A DNA stretch of 64,000 nucleotides from Polycladomyces abyssicola. GTDB taxonomy: Bacteria; Bacillota; Bacilli; Thermoactinomycetales; JIR-001. The stretch lies in contig NZ_AP024601.1 in the NCBI RefSeq assembly GCF_018326425.1, positions 2,840,001 to 2,904,000 of the forward strand. The letters run 5' to 3'. Below the pieces are notes generated by a model. That model saw nothing but the letters and a program-made list of their open reading frames with translations. It did not search any database and was not told the DNA's origin. Of this stretch, positions 1,129 to 10,607 are shown one piece after another. Numbering within the stretch: the stretch's first letter is position 1; every line of letters begins with the position of its first letter. The position numbers were made by a program, and so were the translations under genes.

Positions 1129-1326
1129 CTACGGTAAACTTTCACATGCGATTCCGTCGTGGTCGTGATCCAAACCGTCCACATTGTTGGATGGTCTTCC
1201 ACCCACCATGCGCATGCTTTCGAAGAAGAGGGTTTCTTTTGCGTTGAGAGGGCCGGTCCCCTTCTTATACGCTGTAAATAAGCTCTTATTATCTATTTCG
1301 AAACATCCGTCATTTTTCGTGTCCAA
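1129..1326 (-). pseudogene. Excalibur-like calcium-binding domain fragment
   Basis: A 65-codon frame ends with a motif typical of the Excalibur domain (LDHDHDGIACE; family pattern LDxDxDGxxCE). This extracellular calcium-binding module is usually at the C-terminus of secreted nucleases or short surface proteins. The first conserved Cys of the domain appears to be replaced (FESMRM where the family has an xNC motif). No signal peptide or upstream catalytic domain is visible. A truncated, decaying relic of a secreted protein is the simplest reading; a short intact protein cannot be excluded. Confidence 0.4.
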
Positions 1327-1334
1327 TTCTTATA

Positions 1335-1376
1335 TGAAAAACAAAATACCGTTGACCTTTTAGATCAGGCCAACGG
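1335..1376 (-). terminator. Hairpin with T-rich tail on the minus strand
   Basis: CCGTTGGCCT pairs with AGGTCAACGG (one mismatch) around an 8-base loop. It is followed on the minus strand by TATTTTGTTTTT. It sits just upstream of the Excalibur fragment and downstream (minus sense) of nothing recognisable, consistent with a scrambled region. Confidence 0.5.
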
Positions 1377-1400
1377 CTAAATAACAGGTTCAGGTACCGG

Positions 1401-1724
1401 ACCCGAGCTACTCCTTATCGAAGTAGTGAACGGTCTCCGTGAAGGGGCATAGGTTTTCGCAGTATTGTAGTGGAGAAAAAATTGATATTCCATGTGTTTG
1501 AAGCGCTTGCTGAGTTTGAACGGGAGATAATCCGAGAGAGAACGCAGGCTGGTTTGGCTGCGGCTCGTGCAAGGAAGAAATTGGGCGGGCGACCACGGGT
1601 GATGGATGAGCGGAAAGTGAAAATGGCCCAATCTCTTATGAAGGCCCCCAACCTTTCCATCCAAGATATTTATGAAACACTTCAGGTGTCCAAAGCGACG
1701 CTTTACCGGTATCTGTCCGAATGA
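1401..1724 (+). pseudogene. Serine recombinase (resolvase/invertase) remnant
   Basis: The last 84 codons, from 1470, carry the C-terminal part of a Tn3-type resolvase. They hold the E-helix region (KLIFHVFEALAEFEREIIRE), the linker (RTQAGLAAARAR) and the DNA-binding helix-turn-helix ending KATLYRYLSE. Upstream, in another frame, 1405-1446 still reads like the preceding resolvase strand (LLLIEVVNGLREGA) before a stop. The catalytic serine domain is absent. The gene is therefore broken by deletion and frameshift, a footprint of a lost transposon. Confidence 0.7.
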
Positions 1725-1758
1725 AGTGTATTTGGATCTCCAGAACTGGAGATTCAAT

Positions 1759-1788
1759 TTGATTTTTTTGGCAAAATGTGCGTATAAT
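1759..1788 (+). promoter_or_regulatory. SigA-type promoter of a short RNA
   Basis: TTGATT and a perfect TATAAT are separated by 18 bases. The next signal downstream is a terminator about 100 bases away with no open frame between, so the product should be a small RNA. Confidence 0.55.
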
Positions 1789-1794
1789 ATGAAT

Positions 1795-1899
1795 AAGCAA
1801 TAAGGAGCCCTCATCGGAAGGGCCGCGATCTTTCAACCTAAAAACCTAGCCACAGAAAAGTGACCTGGTAGGTTGGCAGCCCGACGGGTCACTTTTTTT
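1795..1899 (+). ncRNA. Candidate small RNA, possibly antisense antitoxin
   Basis: Bounded by the promoter at 1759-1788 and an intrinsic terminator at 1856-1899 (AAAAGTGACC/GGTCACTTTT followed by T7). A 5' hairpin (GCCCT/AGGGC, 1808-1824) is visible, and AACCTA at 1834-1839 or 1844-1848 could pair with TAGGTT inside the terminator loop. The RNA converges on the hydrophobic mini-ORF at 1918-1989 of the minus strand. That ORF's transcript would run through the same inverted repeat. This geometry resembles txpA/ratA type I toxin-antitoxin loci. The assignment is inference. Confidence 0.35.
1856..1899. terminator. Bidirectional terminator hairpin
   Basis: A 10-bp perfect stem has T runs on both sides: TTTTTTT reading rightwards and TTTTC reading leftwards. 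It can end the small RNA from the left and the mini-ORF transcript from the right. Confidence 0.65.
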
Positions 1900-1917
1900 G
1901 CACCATGATGTGAACGA

Positions 1918-1989
1918 CTACCTGTACCACCACAGGATCGTAGTGATCACCTGGAAGATCAGGGACAGCAGAGCGATCGTCACACTCAT
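1918..1989 (-). CDS. 23-residue hydrophobic peptide, type I toxin-like
   Basis: ATG to TAG encodes a peptide starting MSVTIALLSLIFQVITTILW and ending WYR: one membrane-spanning stretch with a short positive end. Upstream is a purine-rich GGGAAGGAAG about 9 bases from the ATG. Length and composition recall the small holin-like or TxpA-type toxins of Firmicutes, but there is no sequence match I can claim. The candidate antisense RNA converges on its 3' untranslated region. It could be a chance frame. Confidence 0.3.
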   Translation of the reverse strand: MSVTIALLSLIFQVITTILWWYR

Positions 1990-2121
1990 TAGCACCACTT
2001 CCTTCCCTCGCCGGATGAAGGAAGAAGGAACGCGACCCGTCCTCAGGCTCCTTCAAAATTAATTCTGCGCAATCCACGGTAAATCCTTCCTGTTGACGAC
2101 GCGGCAACAAGCCAGTGCCGT

Positions 2122-2259
2122 TATATTACTATACTAAAATAGTGAAGGGATTGGATTCCCATGTGGATTTTGCCCAGCTCTAATGCTGGGTTCTTTTCTT
2201 TCACCATGACAAGTTGTCACATCCACGTGTGCACCGAGAGCCCTAAGCGGTGCTTTTTT
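2122..2259 (+). ncRNA. Structured intergenic segment with two terminators and no gene
   Basis: Two consecutive plus-strand intrinsic terminators are present: CCCAGC/GCTGGG at 2173-2190 followed by TTCTTTTC, and GCACCG/CGGTGC at 2231-2253 followed by T6. CATGTGGAT (2160-2168) can pair with ATCCACGTG (2221-2229), bringing the first terminator and a GACAAGTTGTC hairpin into one enclosed fold. A TATACT lies at 2130-2135 but no convincing -35. No plus-strand gene follows; the next gene is convergent. A stable small RNA or an orphaned leader are both possible. Confidence 0.3.
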
Positions 2260-2330
2260 GTTCAATATCTCGGAGGATTGGGTTATCGAAAACCCATCGA
2301 AAACCCGTAGAATTGAATCATCCAGACACA

Positions 2331-3164
2331 CTAGAAATCAAAATTGTCAGGATCGGGACCGAAACGTTGGTTCCGGTTCAGTCCATCCAGCTTGGCCATA
2401 TCCTCCTGGGACAGTTCAAAATCAAACACATCCGCGTTCTCACGGATACGGGACTCACTCACCGACTTGGGAATGGTGACCACACCATGTTGCAGGTTCC
2501 ATCGGAGGACGATCTGCGCGGGTGTCTTGCCGTATTTGGCAGCCAACTCCCGGATTTCCGGCACATTGGCCACTTCGCCCTTCATCAACGGACGCCATGC
2601 TTCCACCTGAATGGCGTGTTGAGAACAGTACTCACGCAGTTCCTTCTGAGTCAGATATGGATGAAACTCCACCTGGTTGACCATCGGCTTGATCTCGGCA
2701 TCAGCCATCAGATCCTCCAGATGGTGAATTTGGAAGTTGCTCACCCCGATTGCCCGTGCACGACCATCACGGTAGATTTTCTCCAGCGCTTTCCACGTCT
2801 CCTTGTACTTGCCCGCCACCGGCCAGTGAATCAGGTAGAGATCGACATAGTCCATCCCCAGTCGCTGGAGGCTTGCCTCAAACGCAGCCAATGTGGAATC
2901 ATAACCTTGATCGGTGTTCCACACCTTAGTTGTGATAAACAACTCCTCGCGCGGCACACCCGACTCCCGGACGGCTCGGCCCACGCCCGCCTCATTGCCG
3001 TACATCGCCGCCGTGTCAATACTGCGGTAACCCACCTGAATCGCCGTCTTCACCGCGTTTTCCACTTCGCCACCTTCTTGCGCACGCCAGACGCCCAATC
3101 CCAACCACGGCATCTTCACCCCGTTGTACAGGGTCGCTGCATCGGAAAGCGATTTGATCGACAA
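2331..3164 (-). CDS. Aldo/keto reductase (AKR5 family, YtbE/YvgN-like)
   Basis: NADPH-dependent carbonyl reductase, probably detoxifying glyoxals and other aldehydes. A TTG start is chosen because GGGAGGTGG stands about 6 bases before it. The frame extends upstream, but the extra 23 residues lack family similarity. From this start (277 residues) the catalytic tetrad falls at D50 and Y55 (SIDTAAMYGN), K80 (TTKVW) and H113 (LIHWP), as usual for the family. The cofactor loop (IPKSVSESRIREN) is present near the C-terminus. Single gene, no partner. Confidence 0.9.
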   Translation of the reverse strand: MSIKSLSDAATLYNGVKMPWLGLGVWRAQEGGEVENAVKTAIQVGYRSIDTAAMYGNEAGVGRAVRESGVPREELFITTKVWNTDQGYDSTLAAFEASLQRLGMDYVDLYLIHWPVAGKYKETWKALEKIYRDGRARAIGVSNFQIHHLEDLMADAEIKPMVNQVEFHPYLTQKELREYCSQHAIQVEAWRPLMKGEVANVPEIRELAAKYGKTPAQIVLRWNLQHGVVTIPKSVSESRIRENADVFDFELSQEDMAKLDGLNRNQRFGPDPDNFDF

Positions 3165-3552
3165 ATCTCTCCACCTCCCAGATGTTTTGGTACGAATGAT
3201 CACGAGAAACAGGCAATCCAGATTGGAAACCAATACATCTCAGAGTCAATCACGATCACCCTGAGTTTAAACCTTTGAAAAGATAGAATCAACTGCCATG
3301 TGTTTTATGCACATGATCTGTTAAGACCATACAGGTTTCCTATAGGTTCAAAGATGATTGATGCAAAAATGGCCCATTCAGTGTGAATGGGTTAACGTCA
3401 TTGTCTTTTCCCGATCGTCCCCAAAATCGTTCCAACTAAAAATTGTTCCTGCCTGATTGAATCGTTACACTGACCCAATCCTAACTTGGTTCATTTTTTA
3501 TGTTTTTGTATCTAATCACACTGAAATTAAATAAAATAGTCTAAATTACATA
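3165..3552. other. Intergenic region without a gene
   Basis: About 390 bases, AT-rich towards the right. One hairpin is seen (CCCATTC/GAATGGG, 3377-3396) without a clear T run. No conserved frame is recognised. The right end carries the promoter of the receptor gene. Confidence 0.6.
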
Positions 3553-3581
3553 TTCCAATCAAAACCCATTCATAGTATGAT
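3553..3581 (+). promoter_or_regulatory. Putative promoter of the HTH-TPR receptor gene
   Basis: TTCCAA, a 17-base spacer, and TATGAT; the start codon is about 40 bases downstream. The -35 is weak, which would suit an activated or autoregulated gene. Confidence 0.4.
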
Positions 3582-3621
3582 GAACATGTCGAGATATAGA
3601 GGAAAATGACAGGAGGAGAAA

Positions 3622-4950
3622 ATGATGCCAGAACTTGATCTCATTCAAATCGGATCTATTATCCGAAAAGTAAGAAAAGGCAAGGGATTGCGTCTGGAGG
3701 ATCTCGCGGATGAAAACATCTCCCCTGCCACTGTCAGCAACATCGAACGCGGAGTCCCACACGTCAATGCGGAAAAAGTGATGTATCTGTTGAAGAAGCT
3801 AGGGCTGTCATTGGAGCAGATTCCGGAGTTGTTGGTGGGGGAAGATGAAAAGGCAGAGCACTTATATCTTCAATTATTTTCATTGGAGTCCCAAATCGGC
3901 TATGTCGACACACAACAGATTTTGCAAGTGCTGAATACGATTGAAGTAGAGGATGACCACCCTTACGTCCCCTATGTCCACTATATAAGGGGAAGATGTT
4001 TGATCCAACAATCCCAGTTTTCGAAAGCGGAACGGTCCCTGTTTAATGCTATTCGACTTTCCAGCAGAGGATTAAACAAAAAAAGGAATTTCGAAGCACT
4101 CAGTTTTAATGAGCTGGGGATTTGTTACTATCACCAAGGAGATCTAAACCAAGCCCTCCATTTCACCGAGTCAGCCGCAGATGCCTACGAAGAAAATGGA
4201 GAACGTCCTCAACTCAAATATACCATCGCCTTAAACCAAGCCACCTACCTCGAAAAAATGGGACGTCTAGGAGAAGCGATGCAGATTGTGCAAAATATGT
4301 GGGAACACATTGATCGGATGGAAATCCTCCCTTCCCTTCAGTTGTATGATCTTCAAGTTCACCTGCTAAAAAGAAACAAAATTTATGATAGGGCCATACA
4401 TTATGCAAAAGAAGGTATTGAAAAAGCAAGGCTAAGTGGGAAAGCTGATTGGCTTTTCAATCTATGGACTGCGTTGGGTAGCGTTTATTTGTACAAGAAG
4501 GATTGGAATCTTTCTGAAACCTGCCTTCAAACTGCCTTGAATTTAGAGAGTTACTCATCTATTAATGTTTTGGTACAAGTCTATACAAAACTCGGTCTGG
4601 TATATTTCCACAAACGAATTCCTGACAAAGCTGAACAAGCATTACAAAGGGCGGTATCTTTAAGCGAAGAAGCCCATGTAATCCCTCGATTTTTCGCTTT
4701 ATTGGTGATGGGGGACTATTTGCAAAAAGTTGGTAGAGATCAAGAAGCTATCAAATTATATGTTCAGGCACTGGAAGTGTCCAAGTATTACCATAATCAT
4801 GCACTGGAATATAAGGCACTCTTCCGTCTAGCTGGTTTGAAAAAAGAGCAAAACAAAGAGGAATTCGTCAGTCATTTAGAAAATATGTATGAAGTAGCAG
4901 CAACATTGCAATGGTACGGCGGGGAGGAGGATTATTATGAAATCTTGTAA
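3622..4950 (+). CDS. RRNPP-type quorum-sensing receptor (XRE helix-turn-helix plus TPR repeats)
   Basis: 442 residues; AGGAGG stands 5 bases before the ATG. Residues about 9-63 form an XRE-type helix-turn-helix (IRKVRKGKGLRLEDLADE... SPATVSNIERG). The rest, from about residue 80, is a solenoid of tetratricopeptide-like helix pairs (ALSFNELGICYYHQGDLNQA; KLGLVYFHKRIPDKAEQALQ; MGDYLQKVGRDQEAIKLYVQ). This is the architecture of NprR/PlcR cytoplasmic receptors, and the length is close to NprR. The last 14 bases overlap the start of a 44-codon gene for a secreted peptide precursor, the hallmark of a receptor/propeptide pair. Expected role: a transcription factor switched by the re-imported peptide. 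Target genes are unknown. Confidence 0.8.
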   Translation: MMPELDLIQIGSIIRKVRKGKGLRLEDLADENISPATVSNIERGVPHVNAEKVMYLLKKLGLSLEQIPELLVGEDEKAEHLYLQLFSLESQIGYVDTQQILQVLNTIEVEDDHPYVPYVHYIRGRCLIQQSQFSKAERSLFNAIRLSSRGLNKKRNFEALSFNELGICYYHQGDLNQALHFTESAADAYEENGERPQLKYTIALNQATYLEKMGRLGEAMQIVQNMWEHIDRMEILPSLQLYDLQVHLLKRNKIYDRAIHYAKEGIEKARLSGKADWLFNLWTALGSVYLYKKDWNLSETCLQTALNLESYSSINVLVQVYTKLGLVYFHKRIPDKAEQALQRAVSLSEEAHVIPRFFALLVMGDYLQKVGRDQEAIKLYVQALEVSKYYHNHALEYKALFRLAGLKKEQNKEEFVSHLENMYEVAATLQWYGGEEDYYEIL

Positions 4951-5071
4951 GATAGTTGCGATGTTATCGATAGTCCTTGCACTATTTTGCGGAGTATTGC
5001 TTTATCAACCTACTCCATCTTTTATTTCCAGCAATATCATCCCCAACACTGGAGATCCTACATCTGGATAA
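4937..5071 (+). CDS. Secreted signalling-peptide precursor (Phr/NprX-like), 44 residues
   Basis: Starts inside the receptor gene with a near-perfect GGGGAGGAGG 6 bases before its ATG. Residues 1-5 are basic (MKSCK), and 6-23 are a hydrophobic export signal (IVAMLSIVLALFCGVLLY). The remainder is a short polar tail, QPTPSF..., ending NIIPNTGDPTSG. Size, topology, overlap with the receptor and the terminator directly after it are those of RRNPP propeptides, from which extracellular proteases release a C-terminal 5-8-mer that Opp re-imports. The mature form is not determinable here; it probably lies in the last 8-10 residues. The sequence does not match the NprX, PapR, AimP or Phr pheromones I know. 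Confidence 0.7.
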   Translation: MKSCKIVAMLSIVLALFCGVLLYQPTPSFISSNIIPNTGDPTSG

Positions 5072-5082
5072 TTGATTCATAT

Positions 5083-5116
5083 TCGGACACTTTAGGGTGT
5101 CCGATTTCTTTATTTT
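5083..5116 (+). terminator. Terminator of the receptor-peptide operon
   Basis: The stem TCGGACAC/GTGTCCGA has a 6-base loop, then TTTCTTTATTTT. It closes the bicistronic unit 11 bases after the propeptide stop. Confidence 0.85.
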
Positions 5117-5119
5117 GAG

Positions 5120-5905
5120 TAAAAACCCTTAGCATACCTTGAGCTAGGGCGATTTCCTTCGGGCCATGAACAGACAAATTGATACAGAAGAATATCACCC
5201 TATCTTATCAGCCGAAAGATTGGAGTCCTCACTTTCGTATCCCCTCTCTCACTCTATATCCGGATCGATTACAAGACACAAACGAATGGGTAAATCGGTA
5301 TCTTCAGTCGGAAAGAAAGTTGAAATGGCTCCAACGGATGGTTTCCCGCAGAAAGAAGGGATCAAATCGTTGGAGAAAAGCGGCCCTGATGTTGGCCAAA
5401 TGCCATGAATACATAGCCAATCAGAGAAAAGACGCCGCTCACAGAATCAGCCGATATTTGGTGGACAACTACGATGGGATCGCCTTTGAAGACTTGAACA
5501 TTCGGGGGATGGTGAAAAATCACCATCTTGCCAAGAGCTTGCAGACGCAGGTTGGAGGATGCTGGTTCAATTCACGACTTACAAGGCAGAGTGGGCCGGT
5601 AAGCAAGTGATAACAGTTGATCCTCGCAACACGTCGCAAGTTTGCTCGAAATGCGGTCAGATCGTAAAGAAGACATTAAAAGAACGTACCCATCGTTGCT
5701 CATGCGGATATGTGGCAGACAGAGATGTCAATGCCGCAAGAAATATCCTGCATCGAGCGATGGGATACGTTCCTGAACCGAGATACGGGCAATTAGAACT
5801 AAACCTTTTCTAGGCTTGGACGAAGCCTTCGTGGATGGATGTGGATTGCCACGCCAGATGAAGCGAGAAGCCCACGGCTTTAGCTGTGTGGAGCAAGTCA
5901 CCGAA
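5120..5905 (+). mobile_element. IS605/IS1341-type element relic (tnpB only, internally deleted)
   Basis: The left side has an imperfect hairpin (CCCTTAGC/GCTAGGG, 5126-5149). The right side has the subterminal hairpin typical of this group (GCCCACGGC-TTTA-GCTGTGTGG, about 5870-5895) after the tnpB stop. No tnpA transposase is present. The N-terminal half of tnpB is missing and the rest is frameshifted, so the copy is dead. The right-end segment recurs inverted near 18.3 kb. Exact boundaries are approximate. Confidence 0.65.
5179..5813 (+). pseudogene. tnpB: tnpB (IS605 OrfB, RNA-guided nuclease family), truncated and frameshifted
   Basis: The first part (5179 to about 5540) reads like the middle of TnpB: LQRMVSRRKKGSNRWRKAAL, IANQRKDAAHRISRYLVDNY, and the RuvC-associated FEDLNIRGMVKNHHLAKS. 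A one-base loss near 5538 shifts the frame. The reading resumes as ADAGWRMLVQFTTYKAEWAG, then the zinc-ribbon CSKCG...CSCG and the final RuvC Asp in VADRDVNAARNIL. The N-terminal about 150 residues are absent. TnpB proteins are ancestors of Cas12; this copy is inactive as written. Confidence 0.8.
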
Positions 5906-5907
5906 AC

Positions 5908-6027
5908 ATGAAAGCGATCGAGGACGAAACCGGGCAATATGAATTCTTTGTTGGTAATCCGTTTGTCACCGGAAACTTGGTCGATGGTACGTTCATTCAG
6001 GGGCCGTTGTTCCTGTTTCCCTATTGA
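5908..6027 (+). pseudogene. Fragment of a DUF4011-type DNA helicase
   Basis: 39 codons contain YEFFVGNPFVTGNLVDGTFI and QGPLFLFPY. This resembles the conserved N-terminal stretch of large superfamily I helicases with a DUF4011 domain (pattern xxVGyPFveGxlxDGtxvraPLxLFPv). The frame is open at its left edge only because the IS605 relic ends there, and it stops at a TGA with nothing of the helicase core after it. It probably marks a defence or mobility gene lost when the element and neighbours rearranged. Recognition is from memory of the motif, so moderate confidence. Confidence 0.45.
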
Positions 6028-6187
6028 AATCGCGGGCAATTTCCTCAAAACGAAGCATACTTTGCCCGCGACCTGCGCTGACTGGGTCGGAGCGGTGTCA
6101 TCATCTGCTTCCCTGTAGGGCGCAGGTGGAGCGAGCCGGGAAAGCGATGTGGACATTATCCACCAGACACACCCTCTCTAGCCAAAA
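6028..6187 (-). repeat. Dispersed repeat, copy A (inverted relative to copy B)
   Basis: Read on the minus strand, this stretch aligns over about 150 bases with 56262-56430 of the plus strand. Shared blocks include GTGTCTGGTG, GCTTTCCCGGCTCGCTCC, ACCTGCGCCCT, GGAAGCAGA and GAGGAAATTGCCCG. No transposase is associated. It lies between the helicase fragment and the carboxypeptidase promoter. Confidence 0.75.
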
Positions 6188-6194
6188 ATCTTAG

Positions 6195-6200
6195 TATAAT
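6195..6200 (+). promoter_or_regulatory. -10 element of the carboxypeptidase gene
   Basis: A perfect TATAAT about 80 bases before the ATG; no matching -35 is obvious because the upstream bases belong to the dispersed repeat. Confidence 0.4.
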
Positions 6201-6278
6201 AGAAGGTTAATGCATACAAAGAAGTGAATCATTGTAAAAATAGACTTCGTTAGCAGCAAGAAAGCTGGGAGGGGTTTG

Positions 6279-7883
6279 ATGACGAATAAGAAGTGGTTGT
6301 CCCTGTCGGCTGCGGCAGTACTGGCCTTCTCGTCCTTGGCCGTGGCTCAGGCGGAGCCGTCCACGCCATATTACGGGAAGAGTTATTCCCAGCCGGAAAA
6401 GGTGCTGAAACTGTATCCCGATCCGGATGAACGGTTTGACACCCCTGCATTCACTTCCGGAAAGGAGCGGTTCACCAGCCAAGAAGAGATGATGGCTTTC
6501 CTCCGTGGTTTGGAATCGAAGAGCCCCTGGATGAAATTGGAGGTGATCGGCCACTCCCAAGAGGGACGGGAGATACCTGCCCTCTTTTTCCAGAAGGGAA
6601 GCGGCAAGAAGAAGCCCACCGTCTGGCTGCAGGGACAGATCCACGGCAATGAACCGGCCGCCGGGGAAGCGGTGCTGGTGATGGCAGAGAAGCTGGCAGG
6701 TTCCTATGGCAAGAAGCTGCTGGATAAGATCAACGTGGTCATCGTACCCAGAGTCAATCCCGATGGCTCCTACGCCTTTAAACGGCAGATGAGGAACGGG
6801 CTTGATGGCAACCGGGATCATCTGAAGTTTGACACACAGGAAGTACGGGCGATCCACTCCCTCTTCAACCGGGTACAACCGGAAGTGGCGATAGACGCTC
6901 ACGAGTACAGCCCCGAACCCGAGTTGCTGAAAGACATCGGCAAGGAAGGCTCCCTCAAGTATCACGACCTTCTCATCCTCTCGGGCAAGAACCTGAACAT
7001 CCCGAGACATGTTCGAACATTCGCCGATAATATGTCGCAGAAGGCCAAGAAAGCTTTAGCGGAGAAGGGATTCTCCAGCGGCGACTACTACACGGCAACA
7101 AAAAAGGACGGAAAACTGGAGCTGACCGAGGGTGGACCGGAACCCCGCATCGGCCGCAACAGCTTCGCCCTGAAACCTGCCCTCTCCTTCCTCGTGGAAA
7201 CCCGGGGCATTGGGATCGGACGGGAAAACTTCCCCCGCCGGGTAGCCGCCCAGGTGACCACCCATGTAAGCTTGCTGGAGACCACCGCCCAACGGGCTGA
7301 CGAGATTAAACGCCTCGTGGATCAAGCCCGGGAAGAGATCGTCGACAAGGGACGCACTGTCGGGGATGACGACGAGATTGTGGTAGTAAGCCAAGCGACA
7401 GAAATCCCCAACAGCACCCTGCCGGTGGTGGACATCGCCGAGGGCAAGGTGAAGGAGGTGTCTGTCCGCTGGTTCAGCCACACCAAAGGAAAGCCCATCC
7501 TCACCCGGGAACGCCCCACCGCTTATCTCTTGTCCCCGGACCAAAAGGAAGCCGTGGAACGACTGTGGAATGCCGGGATCAAAATAAAACGGCTGAAGCA
7601 AGAGATGGTCTTGTCTGTGGAAAGCTACACCGTTCGGTCGAAGGAGACTTCCGAGTCATATGAAGGTCATCCGCAGTATCATGTAACTACGGATACAGCC
7701 GCAGAAACAGTCCACTTCCCCGCAGGGAGCTGGGTAATCCCGATGGATCAGCCAGCGGCCAACCTGGCTGCCCTGGCGCTCGAACCGGAGTCCACCGACA
7801 GCTATGTTACTTTCGGGTTCATCCGTTCGGAAGCGGGGAAAAAGCTCCCGATTTACCGGTACATGGAGGAGAAAAAGTGGTAG
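6279..7883 (+). CDS. Secreted M14-family zinc carboxypeptidase
   Basis: 534 residues from the ATG preceded by GGGAGGGG. A TTG one codon upstream is the only alternative nearby. A Sec signal peptide is clear (KKWLSLSAAAVLAFSSLAVA, cleavage after AQA at residue 25). The zinc site is H122/E125 (QIHGNEPAAGE) and H208 (DAHEY). The VNPDGSYAFKR and NGLDGNRDH stretches form the substrate pocket, and FLVETRG supplies the catalytic Glu. A C-terminal part of about 200 residues follows the peptidase domain and may be a beta-rich accessory module. Expected role: trimming extracellular peptides. Monocistronic, with its own promoter and terminator. Confidence 0.88.
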   Translation: MTNKKWLSLSAAAVLAFSSLAVAQAEPSTPYYGKSYSQPEKVLKLYPDPDERFDTPAFTSGKERFTSQEEMMAFLRGLESKSPWMKLEVIGHSQEGREIPALFFQKGSGKKKPTVWLQGQIHGNEPAAGEAVLVMAEKLAGSYGKKLLDKINVVIVPRVNPDGSYAFKRQMRNGLDGNRDHLKFDTQEVRAIHSLFNRVQPEVAIDAHEYSPEPELLKDIGKEGSLKYHDLLILSGKNLNIPRHVRTFADNMSQKAKKALAEKGFSSGDYYTATKKDGKLELTEGGPEPRIGRNSFALKPALSFLVETRGIGIGRENFPRRVAAQVTTHVSLLETTAQRADEIKRLVDQAREEIVDKGRTVGDDDEIVVVSQATEIPNSTLPVVDIAEGKVKEVSVRWFSHTKGKPILTRERPTAYLLSPDQKEAVERLWNAGIKIKRLKQEMVLSVESYTVRSKETSESYEGHPQYHVTTDTAAETVHFPAGSWVIPMDQPAANLAALALEPESTDSYVTFGFIRSEAGKKLPIYRYMEEKKW

Positions 7884-7904
7884 TGATGTGATCCATCACT
7901 GAAG

Positions 7905-7937
7905 AAGGCCGCCATTCGAATGGCGGCCTTGTATTTT
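7905..7937. terminator. Bidirectional terminator between the carboxypeptidase gene and ectD
   Basis: A 13-bp perfect palindromic stem (AAGGCCGCCATTC/GAATGGCGGCCTT) is followed by GTATTTTT rightwards and CTTCTTC leftwards. It separates two convergent genes. Confidence 0.85.
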
Positions 7938-7942
7938 TCCGG

Positions 7943-8833
7943 TCACTGTTCTCTGCTTGCAATAAACTCCGGCCGGGGTGCTTGCCCGGAGAACGGTTCC
8001 ACCAACTTGTTTTCCACGCTGTTGTAAACAAAGAACACATTGCTTCGCGGCAAAGGGGTAATATTGCTGTTGGATCCATGCATGAGGTTACAGTCGAACA
8101 GCACGACCGAACCAGCTGGACCTGTTAATGAGTCAATGCCGTGCTTTTTCACTAACAAGGTCAAACTGTCCTGATCCGGTACACCGTATTCCTGTCTCCG
8201 AAGTGACTGCTGGTAATGATTTTCCGGCGTTTTGCCCACGCAAGAGATAAAATATTGATGGGATCCCGGAATCAACATCAAAGGCCCATTGAAATGATAA
8301 TTGTCTTCCAACGTGATCGAACAGCTCAACGCCCGCATACGCGGCATTCCATCCTCCACATGCCAGGTCTCGAAGTCCGAATGCCAATAAAATTCTTTTC
8401 CTGAAAATCCCTTTTTGTAGTTGATTCGGGATTGATGGATGTACACATCGCTGCCGAGGATTTGCTTAACAATGTCTGTCAGCCGCCGATTTTGCGATAA
8501 CTGTTTATAAGTTTCGCTATTGCGGTGAACAGCAAAGATCGATCGAATTTCTCGGCTTTCCGGCTCACGAATCACTTCCTTCGCATCTGAATCCTGGTTC
8601 GCATCCCAGAGCCGTTTCAACTCATTGCGCAATTCCCGCACTTCTTCCTCAGAAAAGAAACGCTCAAAGAGCAGGTATCCGTTTTTCTGATAGAAATTTA
8701 TCTGCTCGGCATCAAGCGGACCTGCTGCTGGATCTTTTGAATAAATGACGGGATCTTTCCGTTTCAGAATCTCCGGATAATCATTGACGCGCGAAGGATA
8801 GAGATCCATCACCCGATCCTTTATGTTGCTCAT
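7943..8833 (-). CDS. ectD: Ectoine hydroxylase
   Basis: A non-haem Fe(II)/2-oxoglutarate dioxygenase converting ectoine to 5-hydroxyectoine in the cytosol. 296 residues, the usual length. The EctD signature is present: [20 protein letters not shown] gives the first two iron ligands (H, D) plus the ectoine-contacting residues, and the distal ligand is in [12 protein letters not shown]. Its ATG overlaps the ectC stop by 4 bases (ATGA), implying translational coupling. Last gene of ectABCD. Presence of ectD predicts that both ectoine and hydroxyectoine are made, often associated with heat or desiccation tolerance. Confidence 0.95.
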
Positions 8834-9303
8834 TGTCCCAACTCCCCCCGAACGGCTTGTTTTTCTACCCTTTGAGCCCTTTCGCCGGGGTACGCTTTCT
8901 GTTGATACTCCTGTGACTCCTCTTCGATGATGGGATAAACCCCTTCTTCATCATGTACCTCTTGCCCTGTCAATGGCGGATTAAATACACAAACCATCCG
9001 CATATCGGACTTCGCACGCAAGTAGTGCTTTTCATGGCCGTCGAGCGCATACAAAGTCCCAGGCTGAATCGGATAAACGGTGCCATCCTTCACGACCTCA
9101 ATTTCTCCTTCTCCCTCGATGCAGTACACCGCTTCCACATGGTTCTTATACCAAATTGTGGTTTCTGTTCCCGCCTTAATAATCGTATCGTGCATCGAAA
9201 AGCCCATCCCGTCCTTCTTCAAAAGCAAACGGCGGCTGTTCCACGTCTCAGTATCCACGTCATCTTTCGTTCCGATGATGTCATTCAGATGTTTGACGAT
9301 CAT
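8830..9303 (-). CDS. ectC: L-ectoine synthase
   Basis: Cyclises N-gamma-acetyl-diaminobutyrate to ectoine. 157 residues from the ATG giving [16 protein letters not shown], the typical N-terminus. AAAAGGAGA lies about 10 bases upstream. A TTG seven codons earlier opens the frame but would have no spaced ribosome site. A cupin barrel is visible ([34 protein letters not shown]) with metal-site residues E, Y and H. The C-terminal tail (after [10 protein letters not shown]) is some 25 residues longer than the minimal enzyme, low-complexity and charged. It lies 17 bases after ectB. Confidence 0.95.
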
Positions 9304-9320
9304 GATTTCATGTCTCCTTT

Positions 9321-10607
9321 TCAAATCATCTGTTTACACCACTGAAAGCTTTCCTCGAGAATGGTCAGTCCCTTTTCAAGTCCCTTTTCATCAATTGTTA
9401 AAGGAGGCATGATTTTCACGACTTCACTGTTGGGACCAGAAGTTTCCATAATCAATCCCCGTTCAAACGCGGCCGCGCATATTTTTTCAGCTAACCCGTC
9501 AACGCCGATTTTAATTCCCTGGAGAAGCCCTCTTCCTCGCACTTCAGCTTCCATCTCGGGATAGTTTTGTGCAAGCATTTCCAGGAAGAGTCTGACTTTC
9601 TCTCCCTTCTCCAGGATTTCTCGGCTGAACTGGTCGTCTTCCCAGTAACTGAGTGCTTCTGTTGCAGCGACGAAAGCTAAGTTATGGCCCCGAAAAGTGC
9701 CGTTATGTTCACCCGGTTCCCACAAATCATACTCAGGTTTGATCAAGGTCATGGCCAACGGGATGCCATATCCTCCAATTGATTTCGACAGACAGACGAT
9801 GTCAGGATAGATGCCGGCCGGTTCAAAGCTAAAGAATGGCCCTGTTCGTCCACATCCTACCTGTACATCATCGACAATCAACAGGATATTCCAGCGTCGG
9901 CACAGTTCTTCAATTTTGCGGAGCCACTCAAAACTGGCCACATTGATTCCGCCTTCACCCTGAACGGTCTCAAGGATAATGGCTGCAGGGAGAGAAATGC
10001 CGCTGCCATTATCTTCGAGAAAACGCTCAATGTAACTGACCGTGTCGGCCTCGCTGCCAAAATAACTGTCAAACGGCATTGAGATCGAATTCGTTAGTGG
10101 AATACCAGCGCCTTTTCGCTTGGATTCGTTCCCGGTAATCGACAGGGAACCGATTGTCATGCCATGAAACGCGTTTGTGAAACTCATGATCAAATCCCGA
10201 CCGGTTACTTTGCGGGCTAGTTTCAGCGCACTTTCCACCGAATTGGTGCCTGTCGGTCCCGGAAACATCACTTTATAGTGAAGCTTTCGCGGCTTTAAAA
10301 TGACATCATGAAATCGTTCCAGCAGTTTCTCTTTTGCTTCTGTCGCCATATCAAGACTGTGCGTAATACCATCATCCATCAAATAGTCGATCAGCTTGGC
10401 CTTGATCCGTTGATTATTGTGACCGTAGTTTAACGCTCCAGCACCGGCAAAAAAGTCGACATATTCCCGGCCGTCCCGATCCCACAGCTGATAGTCGCTC
10501 GCTTTTGCAAAGACAGTTGGAAAACTTCGACAGTAACTACGAACCTCTGATTCCAAAGTTTCAAAAACCTTCAATGGTGAACGTAATTCCTCTACAACTT
10601 TCACCAA
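9321..10607 (-). CDS. ectB: Diaminobutyrate-2-oxoglutarate aminotransferase
   Basis: First step of ectoine synthesis: transamination of aspartate semialdehyde with glutamate to L-2,4-diaminobutyrate. 428 residues, class III aminotransferase fold. [20 protein letters not shown] and FTNAFHGMT form the phosphate cup, [15 protein letters not shown] and [15 protein letters not shown] the cofactor Asp region, and LSKSIGGYG holds the PLP lysine. A GTG start follows GGGGGGATTTG. Separated from ectA by 11 bases. Confidence 0.95.

Follow-up and report, generated by a model that had tools for sequence, protein, structure and literature searches.

A receptor gene and a short probable propeptide gene overlap at the locus

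The window analyzed here, a 64,000-nt stretch of the Polycladomyces abyssicola chromosome, contains a receptor ORF (3622-4950, + strand, 442 aa) that overlaps by 14 nt an ORF of 44 aa (4937-5071, + strand), the product of which is MKSCKIVAMLSIVLALFCGVLLYQPTPSFISSNIIPNTGDPTSG. The features of this pair, with the evidence for each, are as follows.

3551..3581, + strand: putative promoter/operator TATTCCAA, 17 nt, TATGAT (conservation by eye; genome pattern count)
3622..4950, + strand: HTH + TPR receptor, RRNPP type, NprR-like architecture, 442 aa (Pfam, AF2, VIA-align)
3646..3846, + strand: helix-turn-helix DNA-binding domain, about residues 9-75 (Pfam HTH_3 E 3.6e-7, HTH_19)
3835..4911, + strand: TPR superhelix, about residues 72-430, predicted peptide-binding domain (Pfam TPR families; alignment with NprR 5dbk)
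4921..4930, + strand: ribosome-binding site of the propeptide gene, GGGGAGGAGG, within the last codons of the receptor (sequence)
4937..5071, + strand: pheromone propeptide gene, 44 aa (position, SD, hydrophobic leader common to 36/89 other receptors; G002 orthologue)
5051..5068, + strand: stretch encoding GDPTSG, the predicted pheromone core (conservation in L007 and L002; family-wide Pro at -4)
5083..5104, + strand: terminator-like hairpin at the end of the two-gene operon (terminator scan)

Pfam placed HTH_3 at residues 14-66 of the receptor and HTH_19 at residues 11-75, and several TPR models scored above the cut-off in the region from about residue 116 to 391. The ribosome-binding site lies 6 nt from the ATG of the propeptide gene, and the propeptide has a basic start with a best hydrophobic 12-mer of mean hydropathy 3.02 by the hydropathy rule. 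The hairpin consists of 9 pairs followed by TTTCTTTATT, one of 3 such sites in the terminator scan compared with 1.5 in shuffles. The first-pass annotation had described an HTH-TPR receptor overlapping a 44-residue precursor gene by 14 bases, with a basic and hydrophobic start, a ribosome site and a terminator directly behind; the coordinates and Pfam agree with the former, and each of the latter elements was seen. Neither Pfam nor NCBIfam assigned the propeptide to a named family at E<=1. Its best solved chain, a potassium channel at E 1.1, was set aside, and a PHROG match at E 0.043 was judged not to be real.

The accessible part of PMC10075063 gives an RRNPP signature in which the propeptide has 10-100 aa and the receptor 250-500 aa; the 44 and 442 aa found here fall within these ranges, and the TPR repeats and gene adjacency that the signature also comprises are present (the latter as the 14-nt overlap). 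The signature further asks for Sec export of the propeptide as judged by SignalP; on this point the sequence offers the basic start and hydrophobic 12-mer given above.

The block at 3551-3581 is conserved by eye 5' of the G001 and G002 copies and of paralogues, and many related receptor genes have, again by eye, a TTYCCA-like block at the -35 position and then TATGAT or TATAAT. The pattern TATTYCMA-N15-19-TATGAT occurs at 2 sites in the 3.2 Mb genome, 5' of the window receptor and of its paralogue L002, both of which carry a propeptide gene, while the reversed control gave 0; because the pattern was derived from these same loci, the count is partly circular and speaks to rarity rather than function. 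The element was absent from the list produced by a sigma-70 scan. A regulon search with the pattern matched only the two source loci, so we propose no further target. We infer that the operon may regulate itself through 3551-3581.

The receptor resembles NprR in its predicted fold

An AlphaFold2 model of the receptor, built from an 89-row alignment, had a mean pLDDT of 92.3. The top match in VIA-align 2 was NprR of B. thuringiensis (5dbk_A; Z 28.5, rmsd 4.6, 345 residues, 14% identity), which aligned with receptor residues 73-430, followed by Rap chains and NprR-NprX 4gpk at Z 26.1. Since eukaryotic LGN TPR domains reached Z 25.8 in the same search, near the NprR scores, and since Foldseek ranked eukaryotic TPR proteins on top with the first Rap at rank 30, the fold alone is no proof of peptide sensing. 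The order of the VIA-align matches points to the architecture of the HTH-bearing nine-TPR "clan B" receptors, a clan that comprises the nine-TPR families NprR, Rap, and QssR in the available portion of PMC12700828; the count of nine repeats is taken from the NprR match over residues 73-430. In a phmmer search with the receptor at E<=0.01, NprR was not among the matches, and the match to Rgg-type chains spanned residues 9-108 or 9-68. The modeled receptor thus looks NprR-built, at 14% structural-alignment identity and without a phmmer match to NprR, a likeness of architecture rather than of demonstrated subfamily membership. To place a protein in the cluster of a reference receptor, the excerpted rule of PMC10075063 asks for at least 30% identity over 80% mutual coverage.

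Probable leader propeptides lie behind many related receptors

The window genome, a single contig of 3.2 Mb, encodes five such receptors (E 4.9e-93 or better; a sixth match at E 4.8e-4 was left out of this count). Of 200 genomes sampled across the class, 16 had a match to the window receptor at E<=1e-40, and all 16 are from the window's own order. A search resting on the receptor alignment and two conserved peptide patterns gave 79 named loci, of which, among the matches listed, 77 carry a title or tree label of Thermoactinomycetaceae, whereas the remaining 2 are from one MAG titled only Bacillota. When the sister-clade receptor at L078 served as the query, 40 of the 42 genomes of the order matched at E<=1e-30, with up to 28 matches per genome.

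Behind each of 90 receptors (12 from the genus and 78 others) we looked for an ORF of 25-95 codons that starts between -30 and +3 of the receptor stop and has an SD, a basic start, and a hydrophobic 12-mer, a scan that is blind to tail composition. The 90 do not include L089 (no stop), L093 (truncated), L014-L016 (fragments from the genus), or L006 (a weak match). A leader ORF was present behind 37/90 receptors, the window's included, compared with 2/683 control ORFs (at least 200 codons, same loci), and one of these two control positives is the propeptide of a second receptor. This difference makes a chance origin of the window leader ORF unlikely, and it supports the quorum-sensing-type layout that had been proposed for the pair. 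The remaining 53 receptors, including three of the five in the window genome, failed the leader criterion, and they count against the first-pass annotation, which had named homologous receptors without a downstream signal-peptide frame as its refuting case.

Within the window genome, the paralogue at L002 has a leader propeptide and the receptors at L003, L004, and L005 have none; in two sister species a leader propeptide was found at L007, L008, L009, and L010 and none at L011, L012, and L013. An 11-codon frame at L003, MAANTISVQHT, was rejected, as it lacks the core described below and its SD is, by eye, apparently too close to the start. Leader-type ORFs that miss the scan criteria are present at L037 and L051. 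Some of the 53 look like orphans, while many of the sister-clade receptors among those that fail the criterion appear from their sequences to have leaderless or nested peptide genes instead.

The propeptide tails share a proline-centered core

Proline occupies position -4 exactly in 34 of the 37 propeptides and positions -3 to -5 in 36 of them, compared with a mean of 12.5 and a maximum of 22 in 2000 shuffles of the tails. In a second set of 22 leader propeptides, which shares some species with the first, 19 have Pro at -4, whereas shuffles averaged 2.8 and never exceeded 10. The commonest last six residues are [SGD]-[EDQ]-P-[G/x]-[GSH]-[G/L/x]. Leader propeptides of the window clade carry 1-6 copies of the core, and a repeated stretch in two to six copies occurs in 11 of 59 leader propeptides, for instance QSEPGGL four times in L025 and SAFPGP six times in L166.

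In genome G002, the propeptide of the 81%-identical orthologue (L007) keeps the tail as ..ADVSPTMGDPRSG. GDPxSG is retained in L007 (..MGDPRSG) and GDPxS in the paralogue L002 (..SGDPKSLIG), and the GDP.S core persists despite codon differences between the window, L007, and L002, as in Ser TCT/AGC/TCA. Compared by eye, the orthologue retains little of the 44-residue sequence beyond the tail, and in G001 the module is lost; both points speak against the operon reading given below. The pheromone is likely to be about GDPTSG, although the N-terminal end of the mature peptide is a guess. The first-pass annotation had called the pheromone unfamiliar, which is true of it taken singly, but it belongs to a family-wide x-[DE]-P-x-x-x code. 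The orphan receptor of the genus (L005, L012, and L013) ends in TPNQP/TPYRS, with Pro at -4 in 3/3, which is possibly a nested tail or chance.

A sister clade carries the same core in apparent leaderless micro-genes

By eye, some receptors that have no leader gene are followed by micro-ORFs in which a good ribosome site precedes a frame with this core: MRFESDPP at L091 (Shimazuella soli), MKRFESDPPKPSKVLESDPPKPLESDPPKNI at L078 (Lihuaxuella), MALIIVQHTEPPGT and MTLIIVKQQTEPPGT at L057 (Lihuaxuella), and MTEPTDD at L095 (Laceyella sediminis). A loose-motif scan gave no clear excess (6/53 leader-less receptors and 40/665 controls), and a strict-motif scan found two receptor loci (L057 and L095) versus 1/665 controls and missed the by-eye cases L078 and L091.

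We added 100 receptor 3' ends from the order, 100 of about 111 among the matches listed; since they were ranked by similarity to L078, the micro-gene proportions are not representative of the whole order. Micro-ORFs of 5-45 codons with an SD and [DE]PP, starting between -45 and +160 of the receptor stop, were present at 30 of 217 receptor loci (two sets, with some genes shared) compared with 0 of 673 control ORFs, in a scan designed after such cases had been noticed and L078-like receptors fetched. With [DE]P plus 2-3 end residues the counts were 32/217 and 1/673. Permuted motifs gave, for the 217 receptors and 673 controls respectively, 10 and 0 for PP[DE], 7 and 0 for P[DE]P, 2 and 1 for [KR]PP, 1 and 1 for [DE]GG, and 6 and 3 for P[DE] plus 2-3 residues at the end; we take the excess of PP[DE] and P[DE]P to be overlaps of DPPD/PDPP cores.

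The sister-clade micro-genes have 6-41 codons and 1-3 copies of the core. The shortest, of six codons, are MDSEPP (L110, TTG start) and MDGEPP (L112). Similar micro-gene sets recur across species, namely MTRLFGEPPAV/MTRLFGGEPPAV (L205), MKRLFGGEPPAV/MTFLFDGEPPAV (L172), MKHLVDGEPPAC (L200), and MKLRGHGEPPQA (L188, L202), and codons differ between the L205/L172/L200 sets and the L188/L202 set. A very short leaderless peptide gene beside the receptor, as in systems of leaderless communication peptides (LCP), is thus present in the sister clade (MRFESDPP, MDSEPP, MTRLFGEPPAV). At L212 and L221, micro-frames seen by eye (MKLIVLYTDKPPELRGE and MVHVTKPPTDTPTETTGT) stand behind receptors with a GGAGGTGA site; they are perhaps a KPP variant of the core.

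Some sister-clade receptors end in the core

We built a tree of 174 distinct receptors, having dropped L036, L093, L096, L210, frames with internal stops, and repeats of the same gene. A midpoint split placed 119 receptors on the window's side and 55 on the other, with a FastTree support of 73 and an SH-aLRT of 100 in a 94-row mixture-model tree that took in 40 of the 119 and 54 of the 55 (L095 was excluded as a long branch). By automatic criteria, the window side has 57 leader genes, 0 [DE]PP micro-genes, and 0 [DE]PP tails, and the other side has 1 leader gene (L083), 26 micro-genes, and 8 tails. The trees were rooted by midpoint only.

In the eight tailed receptors of the sister clade (8/55) the core is the receptor's own end, for instance ..HSDPPGG (L121), ..VEHEPPDS (L138), ..GEPPDNRSTSLEGEPPDNLI (L178), and ..MPDPPEE (L226). 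An in-frame ATG after a GGAGG-like site lies within the last 45 codons of all 8 core-tailed receptors compared with 3 of the 166 other receptors in the tree, by a pattern that was written after the nested cases had been noticed. A ninth tailed receptor (L137) has a stop inside the receptor frame, and a tenth is from Croceifilum oryzae (L053:932-2290, minus strand, ..MFSFTNEPPEV). The simplest reading of these sequences is that the nested form is a micro-gene fused in frame through loss of the receptor stop, with both products possible. Docking of the nested pheromone tail in cis was also considered; in the model of the second receptor of L053 the tail at residues 443-453 has a pLDDT under 50, and this low-confidence tail speaks neither for nor against it. 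At L190, a receptor end ..IFEADPPDI and a leaderless frame MITFQPLATRLFFESDPPDM occur together, so that two formats are found at one locus.

The module occupies a chromosomal site shared with a related genome

In the sister species G002, the aldo/keto reductase and M14 peptidase genes that flank the pair in the window flank it too, with 79% DNA identity over the receptor and a gap of about 7.5 kb from receptor to peptidase. ORFs in this gap (L097, about 1200-8400) resemble what we take to be DUF1963 and SMI1/KNR4-type immunity genes. In G001, another sister species, the module has been lost, and the first ~83 receptor codons remain, running nearly straight into the peptidase side. The resolvase fragment (1470-1724) and the tnpB/OrfB fragment (5179-5813) that the first-pass annotation had reported near the pair were located in the window, and neither stretch has a counterpart at the same site in G001 or G002; judged from these sequences, the debris looks independent of the module.

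Two other features of the region were recorded. For a MITE-like stretch of 164 bp (6023-6186), the G002 locus contains two more copies (84-87%) plus a short third, and the G001 locus contains a copy at 78%. Frames at 7943-10607 (- strand) resemble what are presumably ectoine genes (hydroxylase, synthase, aminotransferase).

Among putative viral contigs there was one distant relative of the receptor (L096, IMG/VR; 31% identical), a search of 50,697 phage records gave none at E 1e-5, and plasmid matches were confined to two plasmids at 21-26% identity. Behind the L096 receptor (3620-4960), a 20-codon frame MSLNNNSFFYFGDDDDTDRC follows a good ribosome site and does not contain the proline core.

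The pair is best read as a peptide-signalling operon

With considerable confidence we read the window pair as an operon of two genes for RRNPP-type peptide signalling, carried on a Thermoactinomycetales chromosome. This reading is supported by the layout, the SD, the domains, the fold, the leader counts, Pro at -4, the tandem copies, the synonymous changes, and, with the circularity noted above, the promoter-like pattern. Seven SBP_bac_5 (OppA-type) proteins in the window genome were also counted in its favor. The propeptide would leave the cell via Sec and be trimmed outside to GDPTSG or TGDPTSG, roughly its final six or seven residues; the trimmed peptide would re-enter through an oligopeptide permease and bind the concave face of the TPR superhelix, thereby altering DNA binding. 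The likeliest target would be the operon's own promoter at 3551-3581.

A hydrophobic N-terminal segment would also be expected if the 44-codon gene encoded a membrane microprotein that is co-translated with the regulator and acts inside the cell, without any pheromone. We consider this unlikely, because conservation is concentrated at the far C-terminus (with Pro at -4 in both propeptide sets), because tandem repeats surround the core in the 11 propeptides noted above, and because many sister-clade receptors keep the core without a hydrophobic leader. The remnant of about 83 codons in G001 and the transposon debris near the module could instead suggest that the regulator is orphaned or decaying and that the ORF behind it is a functionless remnant; the window and G002 alike, however, retain the SD and unbroken frames for both genes, and the core residues are maintained across synonymous codon differences, which makes decay very improbable.

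The first-pass annotation had also raised the possibility that the module came with, or once controlled, a mobile element, and a module that belongs to an element and controls its transfer or lysis is conceivable, given that tnpB/OrfB and resolvase fragments lie within 2.5 kb and that RRNPP systems are known on plasmids and phages, as stated in the part of PMC10075063 at hand. Yet the pair occupies the same chromosomal site in G002 and left its remnant there in G001, with the debris common to neither, and its matches in viral contigs, phage records, and plasmids are as thin as described above. We therefore rejected a mobile-element origin and regard this explanation as scarcely credible.

Beyond the signalling operon itself, we favor, with real reservations, the broader reading that there is one NprR-like Thermoactinomycetales family with the code x-[DE]-P in three formats, namely leader propeptide, leaderless micro-gene, and receptor-nested tail. 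In the window clade this core would be carried by leader propeptides; in the sister clade it would sit in micro-genes that are leaderless or nested in the receptor.

Relation to known systems and implications

The closest parallel is NprR-NprX of the Bacillus cereus group, which likewise pairs an HTH and nine-TPR receptor with an adjoining propeptide gene and provides the top structural match. NprX is SKPDIVG, with proline third in its core, as in the window pheromone. The two systems differ in that structural identity is 14%, the pheromone is another, and NprR-NprX belongs to another order. Rap-Phr of Bacillus shares the TPR superhelix (Rap Z 26.1), and its secreted propeptide with a C-terminal pheromone has a predicted counterpart here, but Rap lacks the HTH domain that the window receptor has (PMC12700828, available portion). 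According to the same portion, AloR of Paenibacillus also combines an HTH with nine TPRs, and AloR-AloP further resembles the present family in its many pairs per genome and its 6-aa C-terminal pheromone SHGRGG (PMC7425212, in excerpt). A DPG motif is reported for AimR peptides and for those of Paenibacillaceae subfamily 08 in the accessible text of PMC12700828, which also describes the TPRs of AloR-AloP and of the phage AimR-AimP systems as more degenerate and their taxa as different. Compared with AloP and AimP, the window family has the core x-[DE]-P-x-x-x, and leaderless and nested formats occur in it. RopB-SIP, an LCP system, has a leaderless peptide gene adjoining the receptor, as in the sister clade (PMC10518010, in part); its receptors are RopB/Rgg-type, and Rgg falls in a five-TPR clan (PMC12700828, in part), whereas the receptors here are NprR-like and the window propeptide gene has a leader.

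RRNPP systems in the window's order have been described, among the matches listed, as computer predictions only (PMC10075063, available part); that part reports prediction by five criteria and four Thermoactinomycetaceae gene clusters beside such systems, and the window receptor type may already be among its predictions. Its strict level asks for a secretion tag or SHP match and 10-100 aa, and its loose level takes untagged peptides. In a term look-up of the available text of PMC9765709 and PMC11343458, none of the Thermoactinomycetaceae names looked up occurred, and in the open-licence literature, among the matches listed, no title dealt with leaderless or receptor-nested pheromones in Thermoactinomycetales. 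Leaderless peptides are tied to the PrgX-TraA-ComR-Rgg branch in the text of PMC12700828 at hand, and the starting point of PMC10518010, as far as its excerpt goes, was RopB homologues.

If the three-format reading is true, leaderless signalling would also have arisen outside the Rgg/RopB lineage, and a nested gene would yield both a ligand-tailed receptor and a free peptide, so that the nested form could be an intracellular self-ligand rather than a quorum signal. Leaderless and nested pheromones beside leader-bearing relatives would allow matched receptors to be compared on how, or whether, leaderless signals leave the cell, and they suggest that part of such signalling would be overlooked by searches that demand a secretion tag or a length of 10 aa or more. 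The window module thus offers a testable pheromone, for which the family supplies the code.
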